64,000 bases of DNA, from the NCBI RefSeq assembly GCF_026151205.1, contig NC_087072.1, positions 22,038,103 to 22,102,102 of the forward strand, in the 5' to 3' direction. A program made the position numbers and the translations under genes. Numbering within the stretch: position 1 is the stretch's first letter; each line of letters begins with the position of its first letter. Under the pieces are notes generated by a model. It saw nothing but the letters and a program-made list of their open reading frames with translations. It was not told the DNA's origin and did not search any database. Source of the stretch: Bolinopsis microptera (lineage: Eukaryota; Ctenophora; Tentaculata; Lobata; Bolinopsidae). This document shows, in pieces, positions 39,229-63,800 of the stretch.

Positions 39229-42200
39229 ATGTGTGATATGACAGAAGACGATTTTGAGGTTCCTATCAAGGGTGTTATTGTAGGAAATGGAGCTGTCGGC
39301 AAAAGCTCTATGATTCAGGTAAAGCTATATGATTCAGGTAAAGCTCTATGATTCAGGTAAAGCTCTATGATTCAGGTAAAGCTCTAAGATTCAGCCTTCA
39401 GGTAAAGCTCTATGATTCAGGTAAAGCTCTATGATTCAGGTAAAGCTCTATGATTCAGGTAAAGCTCTATGATTCAGGTAAAGCTCTATGATGCAGGTAA
39501 AGCTCTATGATTCAGGTAAAGCTCTATGATTCAGGTAAAGCTCTATGATTCAGGTAAAGCTCTATGATTCAGGTAAAGCTCTATGATTCAGGTAAAGCTC
39601 TATGATTCAGGTAAAGCTCTAAGATTCAGGTAAAGCTCTATGATTCAGGTAAAGCTCTATGATTCAGGTAAAGCTCTATGATTCAGGTAAAGCTCTATGA
39701 TTCAGGTAAAGCTCTATGATGCAGGTAAAGCTCTATGATTCAGGTAAAGCTCTATGATTCAGGTAAAGCTCTATGATTCAGGTAAAGCTCTATGATTCAG
39801 GTAAAGCTCTATGATTCAGGTAAAGCTCTATGATTCAGGTAAAGCTCTATGATGCAGGTAAAGCTCTATGATTCAGGTAAAGCTCTATGATTCAGGTAAA
39901 GCTCTATGATTCAGGTAAGGCAATCAGGAAATGTCGTTTTAAACTGCTCAAACCAACTTTTCTATATCTTCATCAAGTGAGGCCTTGACATGAATTAAAA
40001 TTTGCCACTTCTGAATCGGACTTCCTCGTTGGAAAGAAAAGTTTAGCTCTAATCAGGATCACATGATGTATTATTATTTTTATTTTATTGTAATGTACTC
40101 CTTCAGCGATACTGCAAAGGAATTTTCACATCAGAATATAAAAAGACGATCGGGGTAGACTTTTTAGAACGACAATTAAGGTAATTTCATATTTTTCTTT
40201 TAATGATTTCGAAACAACAATAACTGTTGTGAAAAAGTGGAATTTCTAGACTAATTTACTGTCCTGTACTTTCATATTCTCCACTGTTATACTGCACTCA
40301 GCACTGTTACACTTCACTGTTACACTTCACTGTTACACTTCACTGTTACACTGCACTGTTACACTGCACTGTTATACTTCACTGTTATACTTCACTGTTA
40401 CACTTCACTGTTACACTGCACTGTTACACTGCACTGTTACACTGCACTGTTAAACTGCACTTTTACACTACACTGTTACACTGCACTGTTACACTGCACT
40501 GTTATACTTCACTGTTATACTTCACTGATATACTGCACTTTTACACTACACTGTTACACTGCACTGTTACACTGCAGTGTAACACTGCACTGTTACACTG
40601 CACTGTTACACTGCACTGTTACACTGCACTGTTACACTGCATTGTTACACTGTACTGTTACACTGCACTGTTACTCTGTACTGTTACACTGCACTGTTAC
40701 ACTGCACTGTTACACTGCACTGTTACACTGCACTGTTACACTGCACTGTTACACTGCACTGTTACACTGCAATGTTACACTGCACTGTTATACTGCACTG
40801 TTATACTGCACTGTTACACTGCACTGTTACACTGCACTGTTACGCCGCACTGTTACACTGCAATGTTACACTGCACTGTTATATTGCACTGTTACACTGC
40901 ACTGTTACACTGCACTGTTACACTGCACTGTTACACTGCACTGTTACACTGCACTGTTACACTGCACTGTTACACTGCACTGTTACACTGCAATGTTACA
41001 CTGCACTGTTATACTGCACTGTTATACTGCACTGTTACACTGCACTGTTACACTGCACTGTTACACCGCACTGTTACACTGCAATGTTACACTGCACTGT
41101 TATATTGCACTGTTACACTGCACTGTTACACTGCACTGTTACACTGCACTGTTACACTGCACTGTTACACTGCACTGTTACACTGCACTGTTACACTGCA
41201 CTGTTATATTGCACTGTTACACTGCACTGTTACACTGCACTGTTACACTGCACTGTTACACTGCACTGTTACACTGCACTGTTACACTGCACTGTTACAC
41301 TGCACTGTTACACCGCACTGTTACACTGCACTGTTACACTGCACTGTTACACTGCACTGTTACACTGCACTGTTACACTGCACTGTTACACTGCACTGTT
41401 ACACTACACTGTCACACTGTACTGTTACACTGCACTGTTACACTGCACTGTTACACTGCACTGTTACACTACACTGTCACACTGCACTGTTACACTGCAG
41501 TGTTACACTGCACTGTTACACTGTACTGTTACACTGTACTGTTACACTGCACTGTTACACTGCACTGTTACACTGCACTGTTACACTGCACTGTTACACT
41601 GCAATGTTACACTGCACTGTTATACTGCACTGTTATACTGCACTGTTACACTGCACTGTTACACTGCACTGTTACACCGCACTGTTACACTGCAATGTTA
41701 CACTGCACTGTTATATTGCACTGTTACACTGCACTGTTACACTGCACTGTTACACTGCACTGTTACACTGCACTGTTACACTGCACTGTTACACTGCACT
41801 GTTACACTGCAATGTTACACTGCACTGTTATACTGCACTGTTACACTGCACTGTTACACTGCAATGTTACACTGCACTGTTATATTGCACTGTTACACTG
41901 CACTGTTACACTGCACTGTTACACTGCACTGTTACACTGCACTGTTATACTGCACTGTTATACTGCACTGTTACACTGCACTGTTACACTGCACTGTTAC
42001 ACTGCACTGTTACACTGCACTGTTACACTTCACTGTTACACTGCACTGTTACACTGCACTGTTACACTGCACTGTTACACTGCAATGTTACACTGCACTG
42101 TTATATTGCACTGTTACACTGCACTGTTACACTGCACTGTTACACTGCACTGTTACACTGCACTGTTACACTGCAATGTTACACTGCACTGTTATATTGC

Positions 42201-44659
42201 ACTGTTACACTGCACTGTTACACTGCACTGTTACACTGCAATGTTACACTGCACTGTTACACTGCACTGTTACACTTCACTGTTACACTGCACTGTTACA
42301 CTGCACTGTTACACTGCACTGTTACACTGCAATGTTACACTGCACTGTTATATTGCACTGTTACACTGCACTGTTACACTGCACTGTTACACTGCACTGT
42401 TACACTGCAATGTTACACTGCACTGTTATACTGCACTGTTACACTGCACTGTTACACTGCAATGTTACACTGCACTGTTATATTGCACTGTTACACTGCA
42501 CTGTTACACTGCACTGTTACACTGCACTGTTACACTGCACTGTTATACTGCACTGTTATACTGCACTGTTACACTGCACTGTTACACTGCACTGTTACAC
42601 TGCACTGTTACACTGCACTGTTACACTGCACTGTTACACTGCACTGTTACACTGCACTGTTACAGTATAGAAGAAAACGACGTGAGGCTGATGTTATGGG
42701 ACACAGCTGGACAGGAAGAGTTTGATGCTATAACCAGAACCTATTACCGAGGTGACTTTAATTACAGAGATATTAGTATTCCTTTTTACCTATATAAGCT
42801 GTCAGTTATAAACTTTAACTAAATAAGAGATATTAACAAGGATGTAGGCAACATACGTGGTAACCATGGTTACCAATGTATATTTAGGTGGTCAAATAGC
42901 CGTCTTAGCATTTTCAACCACTGACAGAGATTCATTTGACGCCATACCTTCTTGGAAAACGAAGGTAATATTATTTTCTCCATCTTTATACATGCCTTTT
43001 TATACATACCTACAATATTCTAAATTTCTAAAATCTTAATTTCCTACTTTGTTGCACGTAATAGTGACTCGTACAATCAGTGAACGAATATTCGTGTTGT
43101 AAAGTTGATGACGTCACATTGTAAAGCTGATGACGTCACATAATCAAATTGTAACTTTTATCAGGTAGAAGATGAAGTTGGTGATATAGTTATGGCTTTG
43201 GTTCAGAATAAAGTGGATCTTATTGATGAGGCCCAGATGACTGTGTGAGTTGGTTATTTACGGTTATTAGATTTAGGTTGTTAAAGTGATAGCTACATCT
43301 TTTCATTACTTACAATTAGATTGGGATTTAGTAAATGAACATCTCGACTTTCACAACGTTGGAAATCCTGCTGAATCCTGATCTTGTCGCTTTGTTTAAA
43401 TTTAATTTGATCAGATTTTTCATCTTGCTGCTTTTTCAGGGAGGAGGTTGAAGAAATGGCAAAAAGGCTAAAAGTAAAGCTATTTAGGGCCTCAGTTAAG
43501 GAGGATTTCAATATAGAAGAATGTGAGTATCTGGTGACATTTAATACTCGACTGATATTAAATTATAGGATTACTGTCCTATTACATACCATTGATCTAA
43601 CACTAAGCATTATTAGAAGGGATCTTCATTTCAAATTTAAGATACTTATTTAATTTCTTAAAGCCAGCCGTTCACTTGATGTTGCAGATGGCATACTTTA
43701 ATTTGATTATGGGGACACCGATTGATTCTCTTATTATTAGTTATTACGATTGAGAAGTTTGGAAATGGTTTGATTGCCGAGTTCAATTCTTACAGTAGAT
43801 TAATTGCTGTGGTCAAAATGTAGACAAACTCAAAAGTTACTTTTGATTGGGTTCCAAGCGATATCTAATAGTTGGATATGTGAATTGTCTGCTTAACAAT
43901 GGTGTCTGGTATTATGTTCACCCAAATCTACAGTTTTTGCGTCAATTTGTTACTTGACCCAAGCGCCGTAGTCTGCATAAAATTTTTGCTACGAATGCAT
44001 ATTTTAACGTCGGGCGCAATATTAATTTTACATGGCAAACAAAAATTGTTTGTCTGCAGTATAGCATTTTGTGCGTCGCGCAATAGCGTGCATGACGTGC
44101 GCGTGGCTCTCTGTCTTAACTTACCGATTAACCTCCTTTTCAATTTCGAGGTTGTTTTCACTGACCTAAACTTATTTTCAGTATTCAAATATTTAGTCTC
44201 CTCCTACTTATCAACGCGAGATAACGTAGTACAATTAACCGTTCCCGAACACAAGCGTCCAGCAAATCCAGTCACAGGTACTCGTCACGCTCAGCTTGTT
44301 TGACAGCCTGCCTAGCAACAGCGTGTGGATCATATCGTTCACTAATTAGTGCTTGATATTGTTGCATCACTGAACTTATAATATAGTTTACTTATCATAG
44401 ACTTTAGACACTACTCTCTGTCTCAACGACATAATTGGTTATCGATCCACCGTGTTGCTATGTTACCGCAGAGCTGTAAATTGACCTACTAAACTTTCTT
44501 GTTTCAGATAATCATAGCAGTAAGCCTAGTCAACCAGATAATAACCCCACTATAAGACTTCCTGTTGCGTCTGGAGGGCCGGAATCAGCATTTGAACTGA
44601 AACCTAGTAGGGGGAACTCTAGCAAGAAAGTGAAAGCCCCCGCATGTACTCTTTTGTAG
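39229..44659 (+). CDS. RAB23: RAB23-type small GTPase
   Basis: Eight exons, all GT..AG and phase-consistent: 39229-39318, 40107-40180, 42666-42751, 42888-42964, 43165-43244, 43440-43522, 44182-44277, 44508-44659. The product is 245 residues. The G motifs are all present: GNGAVGKS (19-26), switch I TIGVDF (44-49), WDTAGQEEF (66-74), NKVD (124-127), SVKED (154-158). The diagnostic VGNGAVGKSSMIQRYCKGIF, AITRTYYRG and STTDRDSF blocks identify RAB23 rather than other Rabs. The C-terminus CTLL is a prenylation-type CaaX box (Leu favours geranylgeranylation), unlike the double-Cys ends of most Rabs. In vertebrates RAB23 acts at cilia and restrains Hedgehog signalling; that role is family knowledge. 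Introns 1 and 2 hold large tandem arrays built on splice-site sequence, yet the reading frame and all canonical sites are intact. Confidence 0.96.
39319..39916 (+). repeat. 19-bp minisatellite that multiplies the RAB23 exon 1 splice donor
   Basis: The exon ends AAAAGCTCTATGATTCAG|GTAAAG. The array repeats GTAAAGCTCTATGATTCAG about 31 times directly after it, so almost every unit recreates exonic TCTATGATTCAG and the CAG|GTAAAG donor. A few units read GATGCAG or TAAGATTCAG, and one copy carries an extra CCTTCAG. The last copy runs into GTAAGGC. Because 19 is not a multiple of three, downstream donors shift the frame, and those that restore it meet TGA first. Confidence 0.95.
40278..42665 (+). 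repeat. 13-bp minisatellite filling RAB23 intron 2 up to the exon 3 acceptor
   Basis: The unit CTGTTACACTGCA is repeated about 180 times, with recurring variants (ATGTTACACTGCA, CTGTTATACTGCA, CTGTTATATTGCA, TTCACTG early on). The variants reappear in the same order, which suggests higher-order repeats. The array ends ...GCACTGTTACAG|TATAGAAG, so the acceptor AG is a one-step variant of the unit. The unit has no AG and no stop in any forward frame, so three very long repetitive open frames result. None is a protein gene. Confidence 0.95.
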
Positions 44660-48811: not shown

Positions 48812-51800
48812 TCAAGTGTTCATGTAGTCTGACCTGGTGATCTCTGCCATGCCTCTCTCGTCAACAAATCCGACGTTGACCTGTATGGTGGATTATTTTT
48901 ATTAGCGCGAGGATCATGCTAACAAATTGTGCCATACAATGTGCAGTGATGTGAAAGGTTCCAACAGCTAGATCAATACTTAACAGACTGCTAGACTCTT
49001 TTACAAACCGGTTGAATCTCTGCTGGAGCCTCAGAATTAGGTCTCACCATCTCCACTTGAGCGTACTCGGTACCCAGAGGATCACCAACTATCGTATCCT
49101 CCGGCTGGAGACATGGCTTTAACTCTGCGGGTGATTTGTGTTCCTTGTAGTCGTTCTTGAAGACCACACTGTCCCCTTTGAAAGCCACGTTTTTGTACTG
49201 GAGTCCCGGCACCTCTCCCCCGTTGCTTGGACCCGGTGGATCGGGGGTAATTTCTACCTGTCAGACACAATATTGGGCTTCGTTGTTGCAAAATTTAGCA
49301 TTTTAAAAATTATTAATATCAGATAACAGAAAACCAGGGGCAAAATATATGAAATTTTGGGTGGAGGGACATAACATACCACTTGAGCGACGGAGGGGCT
49401 ATCAGCAGGATCTTCTATCTGCAATATAGTTTCGTTGTCTACGGGTACGTACTCCGATGCTGTTTTCTCCTGTTTACAAGATTATTTGATTTTATATTCT
49501 TTAAAATTTGCAAAAATTGTATTGTGCAAGTTAGAATCATCAAAGAGTTAATATATAAAAACTTCCTACCTTGAAATCCAGGAAAGCTTGGTAGTGATTG
49601 ATTTGTCCTTCTATGAAACTTTTGATTTCAGTGAAGCTCGGCCTATCCGCTGACTTGAACTCCCAACACTGAATAGAGACGGAGTATCATATTATGTTGA
49701 TATTATGTTATGTCGATCAATAAAAAGTCGGTACCTTTTGGTTTGTTTCATGATAGCGGGAATTATTTTAAGTGAGACCGAGTACCTACAAAGCTACAAG
49801 TTCCATGTACCTGAAGCATAATGGAGTAAATGAAGTCAGGGGTACCATTAGGAGCTGACATCCGGAACCCGTTAACAAGTCTATCCCTAAGAAGAGAAGG
49901 GTCTATACCCGGATACGGGCTCCCACCTGTCAGGGATTAGTTGGGGATTAGCTGGCATTAGTTAAGGGTTGACTGGTTACTGATTAGTTTCTATATTTTG
50001 AGATCAGGGTATAGCAAAAGAGATTTGACGATCAGCTCATTACTAAATCTCTAAATAAGCTAACTACATGATATGGGAGCGCTTAAATTATCAGAGACAA
50101 GTTTACTCGGATCTTCAAATCTACCGCTTAACACTTACCCCATGAGAAAAGCTCGTACATGAGCACACCAAACGACCACACATCACTCTCTGTGGTGAAC
50201 TTGAGCTCGAATATGGCTTCAGGGCTCATCCACTTTATCGGGAGTCGACCACCCTCGCTTTGGTATTCGTCGTAATTATAAAGGTCTCGTGCCAGCCCGA
50301 AGTCGGTTACTTTGCACTGTTTGTTCGTGCTGATCAGGATGTTACGAGCTGCCAAGTCCCGGTGAACGAAGTTTTTCTTGCTAACATACTCCTGGAATCA
50401 TTGTGTCAGGTTTTGATATGTAGCATAATGCATATAATATGAGGAATTATAAAGAGAGACTTTTCTCACATGAAAGACCGAGTTCAATAATCCCTGGTAT
50501 TACCATGCCATTAGAGATCTGCCATGCGAAGAAGACTTGATCCTCTTGAGAAATGCAAGCCTGGTTTTTCTCTTTATTCTTCTGCAGGAAGTTCATCAGG
50601 TCACCCCCATCCACATACTCCAAAATCAGGCAGTACGGCTGATACACGACAATAGAGCCAACGATTCCAACAATATTGGGGTGGTTTCCTAGCTTCTTGC
50701 TCAGCCTTATTTCTTCCAGGAACATTATTCCGTCCCGTTCAGTAGCTACATCTGATGGTTGTGTTTGGCTTTAAGTTTCAGAACATTCTTAAAAATATGC
50801 CTTAAAATTGTCCACATCTCACAGCGAGATGCCAATATTACAGTAATCTGAGTAATCAAGCGATCAAAAATAAAATTGACAAAATATAAAATAGCCACAG
50901 ATTTAGTCATCATTATACAAAATAATCACATAGAAGCTGATCTAGAAAAAATGAAATCGCCAAATAATTAAAGCACAGTTCCGGGAATCATAGCCATCGG
51001 ACAACATTAATTAATTAATTAATTAATCCCGTCACTTTCTAGTTTGTTAGGATGGCGTAAAATAAATTTACCATAAAAGCGTTATAACCCCGATAAAAAT
51101 GGTTTACTTACTGGAAAGTTCCTTTACAGCCACAACAATTGAGGAATCGTATTTAGGTTTAGTCAGAAGACTTCCCTTGAACACCATTCCGAAAGCTCCC
51201 TCGCCCAACTTGTCTTGCAGTTCCAGATGCTCCCTCTTTACCTGATATATAGACATGTCAACTGACAGTTACAAAGAGAGTCGAAAGAAATGGAGATGAT
51301 TTCCATAGAAAAACGGCTTCATACCTACCAAAAACCAGTATATACATTCAGTAAGTGTAGCGAATAGCGATGGTAATGGTATTCGGATCGTTTTTCAACA
51401 ACAAAACATTCTTGATGATACAATAAGTTATTTATACTTTTACCGAACTGAACGTTCGACTTCGGTAAGAGTTCGATCGCGGTGATTGCTTTTTAAAGTT
51501 TTTGGAGTTTGGCACCTTTTAAAGTTCATTGAGTGCGTTTTCTCGACTATGCATCCTGGTATTTGCTGTTGTGTTTTCAAGTGTCCATCTAGAACAGGAC
51601 ACTAATGGATGGGAACAACACTACAGATACAAACCTCGCTCTAAACACGTAGTTCCTCAATTACTGGGCCGAGAATCTGGAGAGAACGGAGTATAAATCT
51701 GATATTCCTTACGGCTTACACTGCTACAGTTAATTAATAATTATTTTATCGCCTGATCCTCAAATATATTCCTGATTAGGCCAGGGTATCGGTTCTAAAA

Positions 51801-54800: not shown

Positions 54801-57800
54801 GGGAGCTGCTGCAGGGAGCTGCTGTTACTGGCCTCACGTCACACTATAATATTATCTCTTATACTGAGAGATGCCGCATTTTTCCAGTACCCTTGTCTTG
54901 CACTCTTTCTGTCTGGGGTTGTCGGACAAGAATTGTAATTCCTCTGTAGCTGGTCGGCTGCTTGATCTTCCGTAACATCTGCATACCTCGTACGCTCAAC
55001 TAATGATTTGGATAGCTGCTTTGTGACCGAGTGTAAAGGACAGTGCTGGACAGTGAAGGCAGGTGGTAGATTGCGTGTTACAAATCTGTAGTGCTAGTTC
55101 ACCTCAGGTACCGGATTATCTGTACAAGTATGAAAACTTTTTAACAGCGCATTCCGCCCGTTAAAGCGGCAATTTAAATAATTGACGCACTAAAAAGGCT
55201 CGGATCGGTAAAATTACGACTGCTAGAGCTTGTTTAACACTAACTTCACCTAACGGATCCGGCAGCTGAGGAATGTGACTAGTTGACTGCTTTGATGGCT
55301 CGTTAGGCGCCTCTTCCTTTTGATTGGTCGTATACAAATCCTTAAACTAGTCACTCTTACATATTGTTAATTAGTTTATACGTAGTAATATAATTATGTA
55401 TAGAGTGCCACGAAGTTGTATTCTGTTGTTGTATTTTGCTTGGACAGTGTTGATTTAATCTCGTAAAAATTGAAGTCAATTTTTAAATTCTGATGCTATT
55501 TAAGTTGTGATAAACATAACATTTTACTTCAAACGGGTTCACAAAGTTGACCGCGTGAGCTCAAACAGGGTCTTCCTCCCGTGTGAGTTTTATCAGTTTT
55601 ATGAGTTTTTAAGGAACTTGTTGAAATTCCAAATATCTTGATTGAGCATGCTATAAATTTTCATCCATTATTAGGATTAAATTGGACTATTTATCACTTT
55701 GTTTCATGCTGACGTACGTTTAACTGAATTTGATTGCTTATATTAAGATTTGTGTGGAGGGGTCATTATATAGAGCAGTGGCACCTGCTCCGGAGAAAAC
55801 AGACACTCCTTCAACCTTCTTCTACATGTCTTTTGATTTTAGGTTCTTTACTAGTTTTCAGTCGCAAACCCTTTGACAAGTTCATTTTGACATGATATTT
55901 TATAATGAAACTGAATGTCTCAGCCAGGCTTTTCCGCCGCCGCCTGGTCTCAGCATTCCCGAAACAGTTTTTTCTCAAGGGTCGACTGAGTCCTCGGCCT
56001 CGGCCTCGGTTTAACCGAGGAATAGCGATTTTTCCTCGGCCTCGGCCTCGGTTATATCAAAGCAAAATTTCCTCGGCGTTGGCCTCGGTCGCAAATCCTG
56101 CCCTCGGTCGACCCTTGTTTTTTCTACTTCAACAACCTTGATAGATTCCTTTGTTTCTTATGCAAAACCTCGACACGTTATTAATTTTTTGAAATAATCT
56201 TGCTTATTATCCTATTAAATTAAATTTATCCAGCTGTAAAATATTTAAAAACCAGACTTACTTGTCCCCGGACACTTTTCCTCATCGAGTCCGTCCGCAC
56301 AGTCCTCGTTACCATCACAAACCAGTTCCGTGTTAATGCACTTCTCCGGGCACTCAAACATGTCATGTTCAACACACGCTGGTTGGAGGAGGTACCTTCA
56401 TATTACGCTCAACTTGATTAATCAGTACACATGATAACTTCTGTATAATAAAAAGCTCCTGTTTAAAAATAGAGGCCCCCCTACTTTGTATGTGATTTTA
56501 TGATATTAGCGAGCAGAATCCGAGTAATAGAGTGGGTTGTGGCTCAGATAAACACATACTGATTGATCATACCACTGTTATACTTTATAGTAGTAACCAG
56601 ACTAAGCAAAGTGTCGAGCAAACCACTCATTATCACTTCGCTGTATTTGAGTACATACAATATACATATTTATTACATATGTATAATGTATATCTTGAAT
56701 AACTTGGGATATGGTCCCAGAAATAGTGGTCCACCATGCAGAGCCGTTAAAACTGTTAGCTGACTCACCTTGACATACTACTTCGCCCGCCGGCTCCCAC
56801 TCTTGCAACTTGTTCTGAGGGGTGCATGTTTTAGTAGCGTTACTATCCACAGAGAGAACGGTAGCTCCCACACAATTGTAAGTTATCTTGTCTCCAGCCT
56901 CGTACAGTGTAGAATTGATCTGACCCTCTGTCTTGGTAAACGTCCCGGAGTCGACCAGGGGTGGCGCTGGACAGATCTCAACTGAGGGGTTTATAATGTC
57001 ACGTGATACGATCAGAATCAGTTGTGCTGGACAGATCTCAACTGAGGGGTTTATAATGTCACGTGATACGATCAGAATCAGTTGTGCTGGACAGATCTCA
57101 ACTGAGGGGTTTATAATGTCACGTGATACGATCAGAATCAGTTGTGCTGGACAGATCTCAACTGAGGATCAGAATCATAAATTAGTTGCTTCATTTTTTA
57201 TTCATGTCTTCCGACCTAATCGAGTTATAAAAGGTCGATATTAATATAATATGTAGGTTCTTTTGCGATAGTCAAAACGCGACAACTAGCGCTGGATGGC
57301 GACAACTAGCGCTATCCAGCGCTAGTTGTCGCTATCCAGCGCTAGTTGTCGCGTTTTGACTATCGCAAAAGAACCAATATGTATATTAATATAATATGTA
57401 TATTAATATAATATGTATGTATATTAATATAATATGTATATTAATATAATATGTATATTAATATAATATGTATATTAATATAATATGTATATTAATATAA
57501 TATGTATATTAATATAACATGTATATAAATATATATATTATATAATATACATCATAAAATATGAACGACTCTCTCCGCTGTAGATACAGCTGGCCAATGT
57601 GTCACGGTTTATTAAAGTTGTTGAACATAGCTAGTCCCAGTTATTGGTTGCACCTTTCACTCCAGCTAATTTCATAGATTAGCCCTAGAGGGTCTGGGAG
57701 TTGGGTGCTGGACCTTATACGTAGCTCTATGTTGTGGGTTACCTGGGTAACCAGTAATGTTGTGGGCTGACAAATTGTTTATCGGCTAACATCGCTTAGC

Positions 57801-60800: not shown

Positions 60801-63800
60801 TCATTTAATTCAGTAGTCTGGAACCGCCCAGTGACCCGATAAAATGGTGAAATGTTTTACGTCGAAAACTGCTGAGTTATTGTGTTCAACAAGTTAATGG
60901 TTATAGTATAACGGAACCAGTATAACTTATACTGGTTCGTCCACAACTGGTGTGGCTTGATTATTGCTGTTATACTGGTTCCGTCCACAACTGGTGTGGC
61001 TTGATTATTGCTGTTATACTGGTTCCGTCCACAACTGGTGTGGCTTGATTATTGCTGGTTCCGTCCACAACTGGTGTGGCTTGATTATTGCTGTTATATC
61101 GACTGATCAAAATAAATGAAGAAATATTTCGACCCGTTTCGAACAGGTATGGCCGATATTTCTACGGTAATTTGATTACTAATCAAATTAAAGTCAGGCT
61201 CCAGCTCAAAATATGGGTAATCAAACTCGAAAGACTTAATCCTGACATTATCAACTGACACTTACCACATTCCCGACAAGACACCGCACAGGTGTCATTA
61301 ACATATGTTCCCGAATTTCCCTAATTGTATTAACTCGTCTCACCTATCGACCATGCTTTTGATCTGTTGTGCTGTGAGTGCTTTTCCCCAGAGATTAAGT
61401 TCGGTGATATCACCCCCGAATCCCCGGTATCCTCGGAACGAGTTGAAGCTCTTCATGATCCCCAAATAGACCGTTCCACCACCAGATATTGTCTTCCCCT
61501 TCGTTAGAGTCAGCAGCCCTGAGCAATGTATAGTTTTTCTTAAATATCTTGAATTTTAGTTTTTCTTAAATATCTTGACTTTTAGTTTTTCTTAAATACC
61601 TTGACTTTTAGTTTTTCTTAAATACCTTGACTTTTAGTTTTTCTTAAATACCTTGACTTTTAGTTTTTCTTAAATACCTTGACTTTTAGTTTTTCTTAAA
61701 TACCTTGACTTTTAGTTTCAGCAGCCCTGAGCAATGTACAGTTTTTCTTAAATACCTTGACTTTTAGTTTTTCTTAAATACCTTGACTTTTAGTTTTTGT
61801 TGATCGCTCTACTCAGATATAAGAATATTTAACTCGTTTACACTATTTTAGGAATAGAGCAGTAGGTATATTAGTACTAGTAGAGCAGTAGGTACTAAAG
61901 CAGTAGATATATTAGTACTAGTAGAGCAGTAGGTATTTAGGCTAGATTTTAAGTTTTTAAGTCTACAAAAACCTCTTGCTGTACTTTTATTTATTTTTGC
62001 AGAACATTTATTTTGGCCAAAGTAAGATAATATGCCCTCCATCATTCAGCCATTAATCTTTGCTAGTGAAACTAAAACATCTCTTAACCGTACAGTTAAC
62101 ATCTCCACAGCTTATGAACTACCGACTGGAGATATCAATATTAAATTAAATAGCCGTCAAAAAATTGTTGCACTCTACAGCTTTTAGTCGGGAAGTGCAG
62201 TAAATAGGTGACAAGTAGGAAATGTGCATAAAGCTGATCATTTGGAGCGTCGTTTAGAGTTCAAAGTGTCTCAATAACTGTGCTTATCCGCTCCTAATAT
62301 CGATTATCTCGTATTTGTCATCACTTCCAAACATATTTCTCGGACTATGACACTTTCTACGCCCGTTGCCCCACCTTGTGCTCACGAGGAAAATAACATG
62401 ACATAAGAAGTTGAGGAAGTGATAGCAGGTAATATTAGTTCAAACCTGTCTGGTTGTTGGTGACCTCCTGTCCGTCCCGGTACCCCCTCCAGCGTCCCGT
62501 ATTGTCCCACGTGAAGCAGGTGGTGTACCACCTGTCCGTTGCTATAGCGATGGAGGGAACTGCTCCAACTTGTTGGTCGATCCCAGCCATGTAGAAATGC
62601 ATGTGTGTCTGGGTGTTTAATAAAGGGGATTACAGCAAAGCACCACCATGCGGAGTTATTGTGCCTAAAATCTGGTTACTCGCTCCCAATCATGGAGAGG
62701 TTAGACCTTTTAACGTGATCATTTCCAGGAATTTTAAAGTAAATTTTTGACTGGAAAAGTGGTCTACACTATTTGAAAAGTCATTGAGATCTCATGTTGC
62801 TTAAAAATCTGGTTGATAGCTCAATTCTGTAATCCTGTAATCTTAGGTGCTAAAAGCTTAAATGTGACCATTATGTCAACGTTTACATACGTAATCAAAA
62901 TTGCTCGAATTATCTACCACAAACAGAATGAATCCGCTCTTCCAGTGACTCTCTTACCGATTATATTACGTTACCTTACTTAAAACACTGAAAGGCGGAA
63001 GAATCTGATTGTATAAATGGAGCTGCAATATCAGAAGACCACGTGATAAGGACCAGCTCTTGACTGTTTCATTTCAAATTAGATCAAAGCTCCCAAGTTG
63101 GATTGTGGGCAATATTAATTGAAAAGCCACGTGTTGCTTAAAAATCTGGTTCATAGCTCTCAATCATGGAGAGGTAAGGAATTACAACGTGACCATTTCC
63201 AAGAATTGCGTTTGACTCGAAAAGCATTACCAATAATTATTATATATTATAATGTTAGAACAAATATTTGCTCTCATGAACTTTATAATAAACATTGCCA
63301 GACAGTGAGGGGACCATAAAAAACTTAGCTCCTAAGATTATATAACTCCGTAATCTTAGGTGCTAAAAGCGACCACTATGTCAACTTTTACTATGTATTC
63401 AAAATTTCTCGAATAATCACCATAAATAGAATATGTCCGCTCTTAAAGGCGACCCTGGCCTTTATATTACCTTTCTTTATTGAGGTATTAAAACACTGAA
63501 AGCTAGTTACGCGATCGCGAGTAATTTCAATTCTGCTCGTGCCGAAATGAGAGAGTACAACGTGAGGAATAGCTGTTAACTGTTTCATTTCGTTTTTCAG
63601 CTGATATTTTCTTTAATTATGTCTCAAGCTGTCAAGCCATTATTTGATAGTGTCATTGATTTCTGATCCACTATCGTTTATTTCATATTCTATGTTCATG
63701 CTGTAAGCATTTTGTTCAACATTACCGGTTACCTTATGTTTCTCAAGGACGATCTCTTCTTTGAACCCATCCACTGTTGTCACGTAAGAAAATATCGTTC

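Follow-up and report, generated by a model that had tools for sequence, protein, structure and literature searches.

A minisatellite repeating the exon 1 splice donor of RAB23 in Bolinopsis microptera, probably tolerated through first-donor choice

The choice among several equal splice donors is a long-standing question of spliceosome function, and work on it has relied mostly on engineered donor pairs, with a few natural examples, among them the repeats of the human factor VII gene (F7), whose copy numbers are in single digits. In F7 intron 7, as set out in an excerpt of the review PMC6627357, the donor belongs to the initial member of a series of 37-bp repeats, and splicing is confined to the most upstream donor by oriented scanning, a mechanism which that article credits to Borensztajn 2006; an excerpt of PMC3778950 contains nothing on these repeats. 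Tandem duplication which spreads an AGGT-bearing segment is further described, in excerpts of PMC3443670 and PMC4974935, as placing both AG and GT in each copy. Here, we describe a donor array in the RAB23 gene of the ctenophore Bolinopsis microptera, located within a 64,000-nt stretch of contig NC_087072.1 (hereafter the window, positions in which serve as coordinates, with the last exon base taken as the position of a donor). In this gene, 31 identical CAG/GTAAAG donors and one better donor share an acceptor (a slash denotes the splice site).

Similar to F7 intron 7, the RAB23 repeats begin at the exon-intron border and each carries an intact donor, although the unit is 19 bp rather than 37 bp in length, is present in 32 copies, and provides its strongest donor in the last of these. 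In our assessment, the RAB23 array probably belongs with the factor VII-type junction minisatellites, from which it differs in its shorter unit and higher copy number, and it lies in an animal genome where such arrays recur. Its copies likewise carry AG and GT, as in the AGGT-duplication cases excerpted above, yet it requires no new intron, as the copies are situated inside one intron, which they lengthen. In a limited literature collection, queried with limited terms by title and abstract start, no account of a genome-wide class of splice-donor arrays was found.

Arrays in the window and in sampled DNA were detected by Tandem Repeats Finder (TRF), and exon peptides were compared with Pfam and PDB. 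The relevant features, all on the forward strand, are as follows.

39238 to 39318 (+): first coding exon of RAB23, encoding 27 amino acids, MTEDDFEVPIKGVIVGNGAVGKSSMIQ, which carry the P-loop; the protein joined from exons 1 to 6 matches a PDB Rab-23 chain
39302 to 39918 (+): 19-bp minisatellite of about 32 copies of the unit AAAGCTCTATGATTCAGGT, starting inside exon 1, with 26 of 32 units equal to the consensus
39316 to 39324 (+): native donor 1, CAG/GTAAAG, exon end at 39318, placed by the ungapped protein alignment over the exon 1/exon 2 join
39335 to 39901 (+): donors 2 to 31, all CAG/GTAAAG (decoys), from the site listing
39349 to 39351 (+): TGA in the exon 1 frame, included with use of any of donors 3 to 32
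39912 to 39920 (+): donor 32, CAG/GTAAGG, with the best predicted U1 pairing
39319 to 40106 (+): intron 1 of the gene model, 788 nt, of which 596 nt are extra array units
40107 to 40180 (+): exon 2 (gene model, protein alignment)
42666 to 42751 (+): exon 3 (gene model, protein alignment)
42888 to 42964 (+): exon 4 (gene model, protein alignment)
43165 to 43244 (+): exon 5 (gene model, protein alignment)
43440 to 43522 (+): exon 6, end approximate, its 3′ end being a candidate donor, AAT/GTGAGT

An earlier note on this DNA, made from the sequence alone, had proposed that a 19-bp array multiplies the exon 1 donor of RAB23, and the anatomy of the locus bears this out. TRF reports 32.1 copies (95% matches; score, 1129) between 39302 and 39918, and CAGGTA occurs 32 times in the array, the corresponding exon ends running from 39318 to 39914, i.e., the native donor plus 31 extra copies. 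Successive donors are spaced by 19 bp in 30 of the 31 intervals and by 26 bp in the remaining interval. The unit AAAGCTCTATGATTCAGGT consists of the last 17 exon bases plus the GT of the donor, and this exon tail, which had been put at 12 bases, is common to all units except the rearranged fifth. The sequence CAG/GTAA is retained at 32 of 32 sites, while the GTAAGG continuation is confined to the last copy. When the units are classified by type, their order reads ABAACAAAADAAAAAAEAAAADAAAAAADAAA, in which variant units display a 12-unit spacing. TRF, the site listing, and the protein alignment place the start of the array at the exon-intron border, with the real donor inside the first repeat, and in the gene model the array and the remaining intron sequence form one intron between exons 1 and 2.

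The gene to which this array belongs is an intact RAB23. The protein obtained by joining exons 1 to 6 matches PDB RAB23 chains over 160 residues (1z22, expect value 6e-70; 9rs9, 2.3e-69), and it aligns with them continuously across the junction of exons 1 and 2 when exon 1 ends at donor 1, which shows colinearity at this donor. Exons 1 and 2 were found once in a genome search, in which six other matches, being 31 to 51% identical, were taken as probable other GTPases; the array itself returned one genome match in a search which skips simple repeats.

Each of the 32 donors was joined by script to exons 2 to 6 and the frame was read through. Donor 1 is the sole donor to yield an open message through exons 1 to 6, and all 31 later donors lead to a stop. 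Donors 3 to 32 all stop at the TGA at 39349, a codon (39349 to 39351) already reported in the second extra unit and confirmed here; donor 2 (+19) precedes this codon and is instead spoiled by a frameshift followed by a stop in exon 2, a distinction absent from the earlier argument from TGA and frame. The claim that only the first donor preserves the frame therefore stands (1 of 32 open), although the reason given for it, the indivisibility of 19 by three, covers only part of the matter: of the 31 extra donors, 10 lengthen the exon by whole codons (57, 102, 159 ... 558 nt), all of them beyond that TGA.

The 5′ end of U1 was canonical in the 4 loci fetched of 10 U1 loci found. Its predicted pairing with donors 1 to 31 is -8.4 kcal/mol (-8.5 in three TGCAG units) and with donor 32 is -11.6, while four other RAB23 donors are predicted to pair at -5.5 to -6.7 kcal/mol. 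The description of exon 1 as a P-loop exon followed by near-identical U1 sites is thus supported by the site listing, pairing, PDB match, and joins. As the pairing predicted for donors 2 to 31 is like that of donor 1, and that of donor 32 is better, donor strength offers no basis for selecting donor 1, and production of RAB23 would require a positional rule. The suggestion that reliable choice of the first donor is required of the cell likewise follows, with a reported human precedent in F7 intron 7, on condition that RAB23 is expressed. Masking of the decoys by RNA structure was considered and set aside, as the accessibilities from a single-sequence fold were not persuasive: that of donor 1 is 0.40, others are mostly 0.43 to 0.52, three variant units are at 0.30 to 0.35, and the lowest values occur at donors 31 and 32 (0.26 and 0.18, respectively).

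We consider it probable that the array is a tolerated junction minisatellite whose first donor is chosen and whose decoys are silent. We propose that the array was founded by a tandem duplication which spanned the end of exon 1 and the start of intron 1, encompassing 17 exon bases and the GT of the intron. The founding allele would have possessed GTAAGG, the duplication having placed exon sequence after each GT and thereby created GTAAAG, and donor 32 is probably the ancestral donor. The array may then have been enlarged by unequal exchange, in an animal genome rich in minisatellites, the 12-unit spacing of variant units being as such exchange would leave it. The spliceosome is presumed to take the exon-most donor, a presumption to which the colinearity at donor 1 and the stops met from every later donor lend indirect support, with selection being positional, such that the 31 downstream copies would leave with the intron; rare use of a later donor would produce an early-stop message, and such errors are presumably degraded. 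The array would persist because it is nearly silent.

Similar arrays are present at other exon ends. The genome was searched for strong donor words occurring three times in close succession, and 29 array loci were fetched, comprising 15 CAGGTRAGT loci (among the matches listed) and 14 more (3 CAGGTGAGT, 9 AAGGTRAGT, and 2 control-word arrays). Exon-adjacent status was judged by eye, whereby 12 of the 29 lie next to an open frame which continues into their first donor (L001, L006, L008, L012, L013, L015, L016, L017, L018, L020, L021, and L029), representing 10 independent cases as two paralogue pairs occur among them; the other 17, L010 included, lack such an arrangement or were ambiguous. One of the two control-word arrays, L029, is itself a donor array. 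Size ranges from 4 donors (L029) to 117 units (L016 with its continuation, L040), of which 109 have GT after AG, while in the related L017 all 30 units do so. The L016/L017 match (96%) is mostly array sequence, and the paralogues L012 and L013 share 96.7% identity over 1655 aligned bases including the array, with 13 and 14 exon-tail copies, respectively. At L016 plus L040 and at L017 (C13), cysteine-rich-looking exon copies lie in opposite orientation approximately 50 kb apart with a 39-bp donor unit.

Ten peptides were scanned against Pfam, nine beside donor arrays (L001, L006, L008, L012, L015, L016, L018, L020, and L029) and that of L010. Three of the nine donor-array peptides match below 1e-4, namely, FAF1 at L018 (5.7e-8; residues 1 to 44 of 48), pecanex at L029 (2.6e-8; only residues 1 to 26 of 61), and MABP1/WDR62-type WD40 at L008 (1.2e-5, far below the model's own cutoff), the last of which also matches designed and natural WD40 proteins in PDB. 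The L016 peptide produced weak cysteine-rich matches (0.0014). At L010 (1223 to 1519), an array of 37-bp units joins TTTCAG to GTAAGT and ends at the acceptor of a TAF2-like exon (Pfam TAF2, 2.8e-14; PDB TAF2, 0.00063). Where 10 exon-end arrays were checked, with exon ends set by hand and the longest frame used, translation continued beyond the first donor meets a stop within 14 codons; the stop precedes donor 2 in eight, and at L018 donor 2 (+41) shifts the frame. Such stops are expected in intron-like sequence and therefore indicate what must be avoided rather than anything unusual.

Whether donors are a preferred site for such arrays was assessed against the background rate. In 100 kb of sampled DNA (ten 10-kb segments at round coordinates), 43 arrays of period 8 to 60 cover 9.2% of bases, and AGGTRAG occurs in the consensus unit of 0 of these 43 and of 0 of the 20 arrays in the window. 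An exact three-copy array was founded by 310 of 97,973 9-mer words in the sample; for words of donor composition the figure is 22 of 5,527, or 43 of 8,545 with the window included. The genome contains 4373 single occurrences of CAGGTRAGT, 2576 of its reverse, 4675 of an anagram, and 3566 of the reversed anagram, the genome word searches having allowed A/G mixing and the sampled-DNA words being exact. From these rates, approximately 12 to 15 CAGGTRAGT arrays are expected (approximately 19 with the window), an expectation which rests on the estimate that about 530 of the 4373 sites lie in arrays, and at least 18 distinct loci were observed (at least 16 when paralogous pairs are counted once). 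The control words leave room for some excess of arrays at donors, and we conclude that donor words show no clear avoidance and no proven excess of arrays.

Raw counts of triples appear to suggest far more (CAGGTRAGT, 493 versus 7 reversed; CAGGTRA, 12527 versus 744; AAGGTRAGT, 399 versus 33), yet the implied 70-fold donor excess was rejected, as long arrays are counted many times. It is further undone by the CCAGGTAA satellite, which dominates the 7-mer matches listed, and by the anagram, which yields 199 triples (its reverse, 19) from similar single-word counts. The acceptor word TTTTCAG shows a weak excess (481 triples versus 196 reversed). The notion that unit lengths avoid multiples of three was also discarded, given the 39-bp unit of L016/L017 and the 16 of 63 TRF periods divisible by three. 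Octamer arrays of the CCAGGTAA type occur, among the matches listed, at C1 374516, 1100048, 1969785, 2110449, and 2582480, and a dispersed satellite, GACTGAAGTACAGACTACT, forms blocks approximately 7 kb apart at C1 4988709, C3 1052956, C4 14834031 to 14941970, and C5 11556997 to 11586117.

Several observations weigh against silent tolerance under first-donor choice and against its extension to other exon ends. Donor use at RAB23 is inferred here from genomic DNA, and among the 32 donors it is the intron-proximal one, donor 32, which has the strongest predicted pairing, such that simple competition, as modeled by U1 pairing, would pick it and destroy the message. A human example points the same way: in DOK7 intron 4, the intron-proximal of two competing donors is preferred, according to an excerpt of PMC5585400. 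As at RAB23, multiple usable donors there share a common acceptor and one yields the canonical functional message, although the excerpt describes two donors which are unlike each other, while at RAB23 31 are the same over CAG/GTAAAG and it is the intron-distal donor which is required. That the 31 later copies are all intact donors could, moreover, be read as maintenance. With respect to the other loci, five of the nine donor-array peptides have no Pfam match, that of L020 has no PDB match either, and several "exons" are defined by an open frame alone. At L001, donor 2 (+24) is in frame without a stop, so the stop rule is not universal; that every later donor meets a stop holds at RAB23 (31 of 31) and was rejected as a rule in view of this exception. 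As a separate observation on L001, whose exon ends at 1180 in donor orientation, use of the second donor would add 8 residues. Among the control words, the reversed word has two arrays genome-wide, fewer than donor words, both containing TAG/GTGAGT, and the anagram has two families among the approximately 100 places listed of its 199.

The strength of donor 32, which is also nearest to the acceptor, is what might be expected to make the array a leaky source of error, in which donor 1 is chosen unreliably, RAB23 output is lost, and the array is a recent, mildly deleterious feature. The identity of 26 of 32 units is consistent with such recent growth. We nevertheless regard this as unlikely, as the coding exons remain intact and donor words show no clear deficit of arrays relative to the background prediction.

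The earlier note had raised the idea of a dosage dial. In the regulatory form considered here, the decoys would vie for U1, later donors would be used in a set proportion of transcripts, these transcripts would be degraded, and RAB23 dosage would depend on copy number. Each later copy is indeed intact, with U1 pairing at least equal to that of donor 1 and better at donor 32, all 31 later donors would give an early stop, and array length is unstable in principle, as indicated by the 12-unit spacing and by the 117 and 30 units which two related copies of a different gene carry. The occurrence of like arrays at other exon ends, beside unrelated types of gene and at approximately the background rate, points to tolerance rather than a RAB23-specific device, and we consider the dial quite unlikely. 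These exon-end arrays, together with a minisatellite-rich genome and the near-background rate at donor words, make a tolerated by-product the simpler reading; the analysis lent no support to a dosage dial, a U1 buffer, or decay-targeted isoforms.

Serial re-splicing, in which donor 1 is joined to an AG of the array, rebuilding an exon 1/GTAAAG junction and trimming the array before a final step, is very improbable. A recursive-splicing ratchet site has a pyrimidine tract and a branch site before a joined AG/GT. The AG/GT is present, CAG/GTAAAG recurring in 31 units and CAG/GTAAGG in the last, but the unit CTCTATGATTCAG has, by eye, no pyrimidine tract before its AG, and adjacent units are 19 nt apart, which minimum-intron limits make too short for an intron. 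Misassembly can be practically dismissed, for although the array rests on one assembly and includes one irregular 26-bp unit, its variant units occupy interpretable positions, it ends cleanly in other intron sequence, and similar arrays exist at many loci.

Returning to tolerance under first-donor choice, a broader proposition can be advanced only tentatively, and we would not wager on it: in this animal, arrays of splice donors, ranging in size from 4 copies to over 100, may be recurrent and tolerated at exon ends because the spliceosome reads donors strictly outward from the exon, ignoring equal or stronger downstream copies. If this were true, the genome would constitute a natural library of competing-donor experiments with which to test oriented scanning outside mammals. 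Should the first donor be used throughout, position would outrank U1 strength outside mammals too; should it not, array length would become a measurable splicing-error dial.

The second intron of RAB23 is also occupied by an array.

40301 to 42664 (+): 13-bp satellite of 182 units, constituting most of intron 2 and reaching the exon 3 acceptor, its last unit reading GCACTGTTACAG/T

This satellite contributes 2364 of the 2485 nt of intron 2, and two adjacent introns of RAB23 thus seem enlarged by arrays which directly abut a splice site. The last unit, with a C-to-G change, forms the exon 3 acceptor, and only two other AGs occur in the satellite; avoidance of AG was entertained on this account but dropped, as the substitution sample is too small.

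Elsewhere in the window, on the reverse strand, a 60-bp array at 56966 to 57167 repeats CCTCAG/TTGAGATCTGTCCAGC approximately four times, a unit which, judged by eye, seems to comprise the acceptor and the beginning of a sushi-like exon, the whole frame at this array having no Pfam match. A 26-bp array at 61531 to 61798 (-) adjoins a weak pentraxin/laminin-G exon (Pfam, 0.005 to 0.007) and contains a second copy of the acceptor and head of that exon. Tyrosine-kinase exons are located at 50131 to 50770 (-) (Pfam PK_Tyr_Ser-Thr, 6.3e-38 and 3.2e-13).
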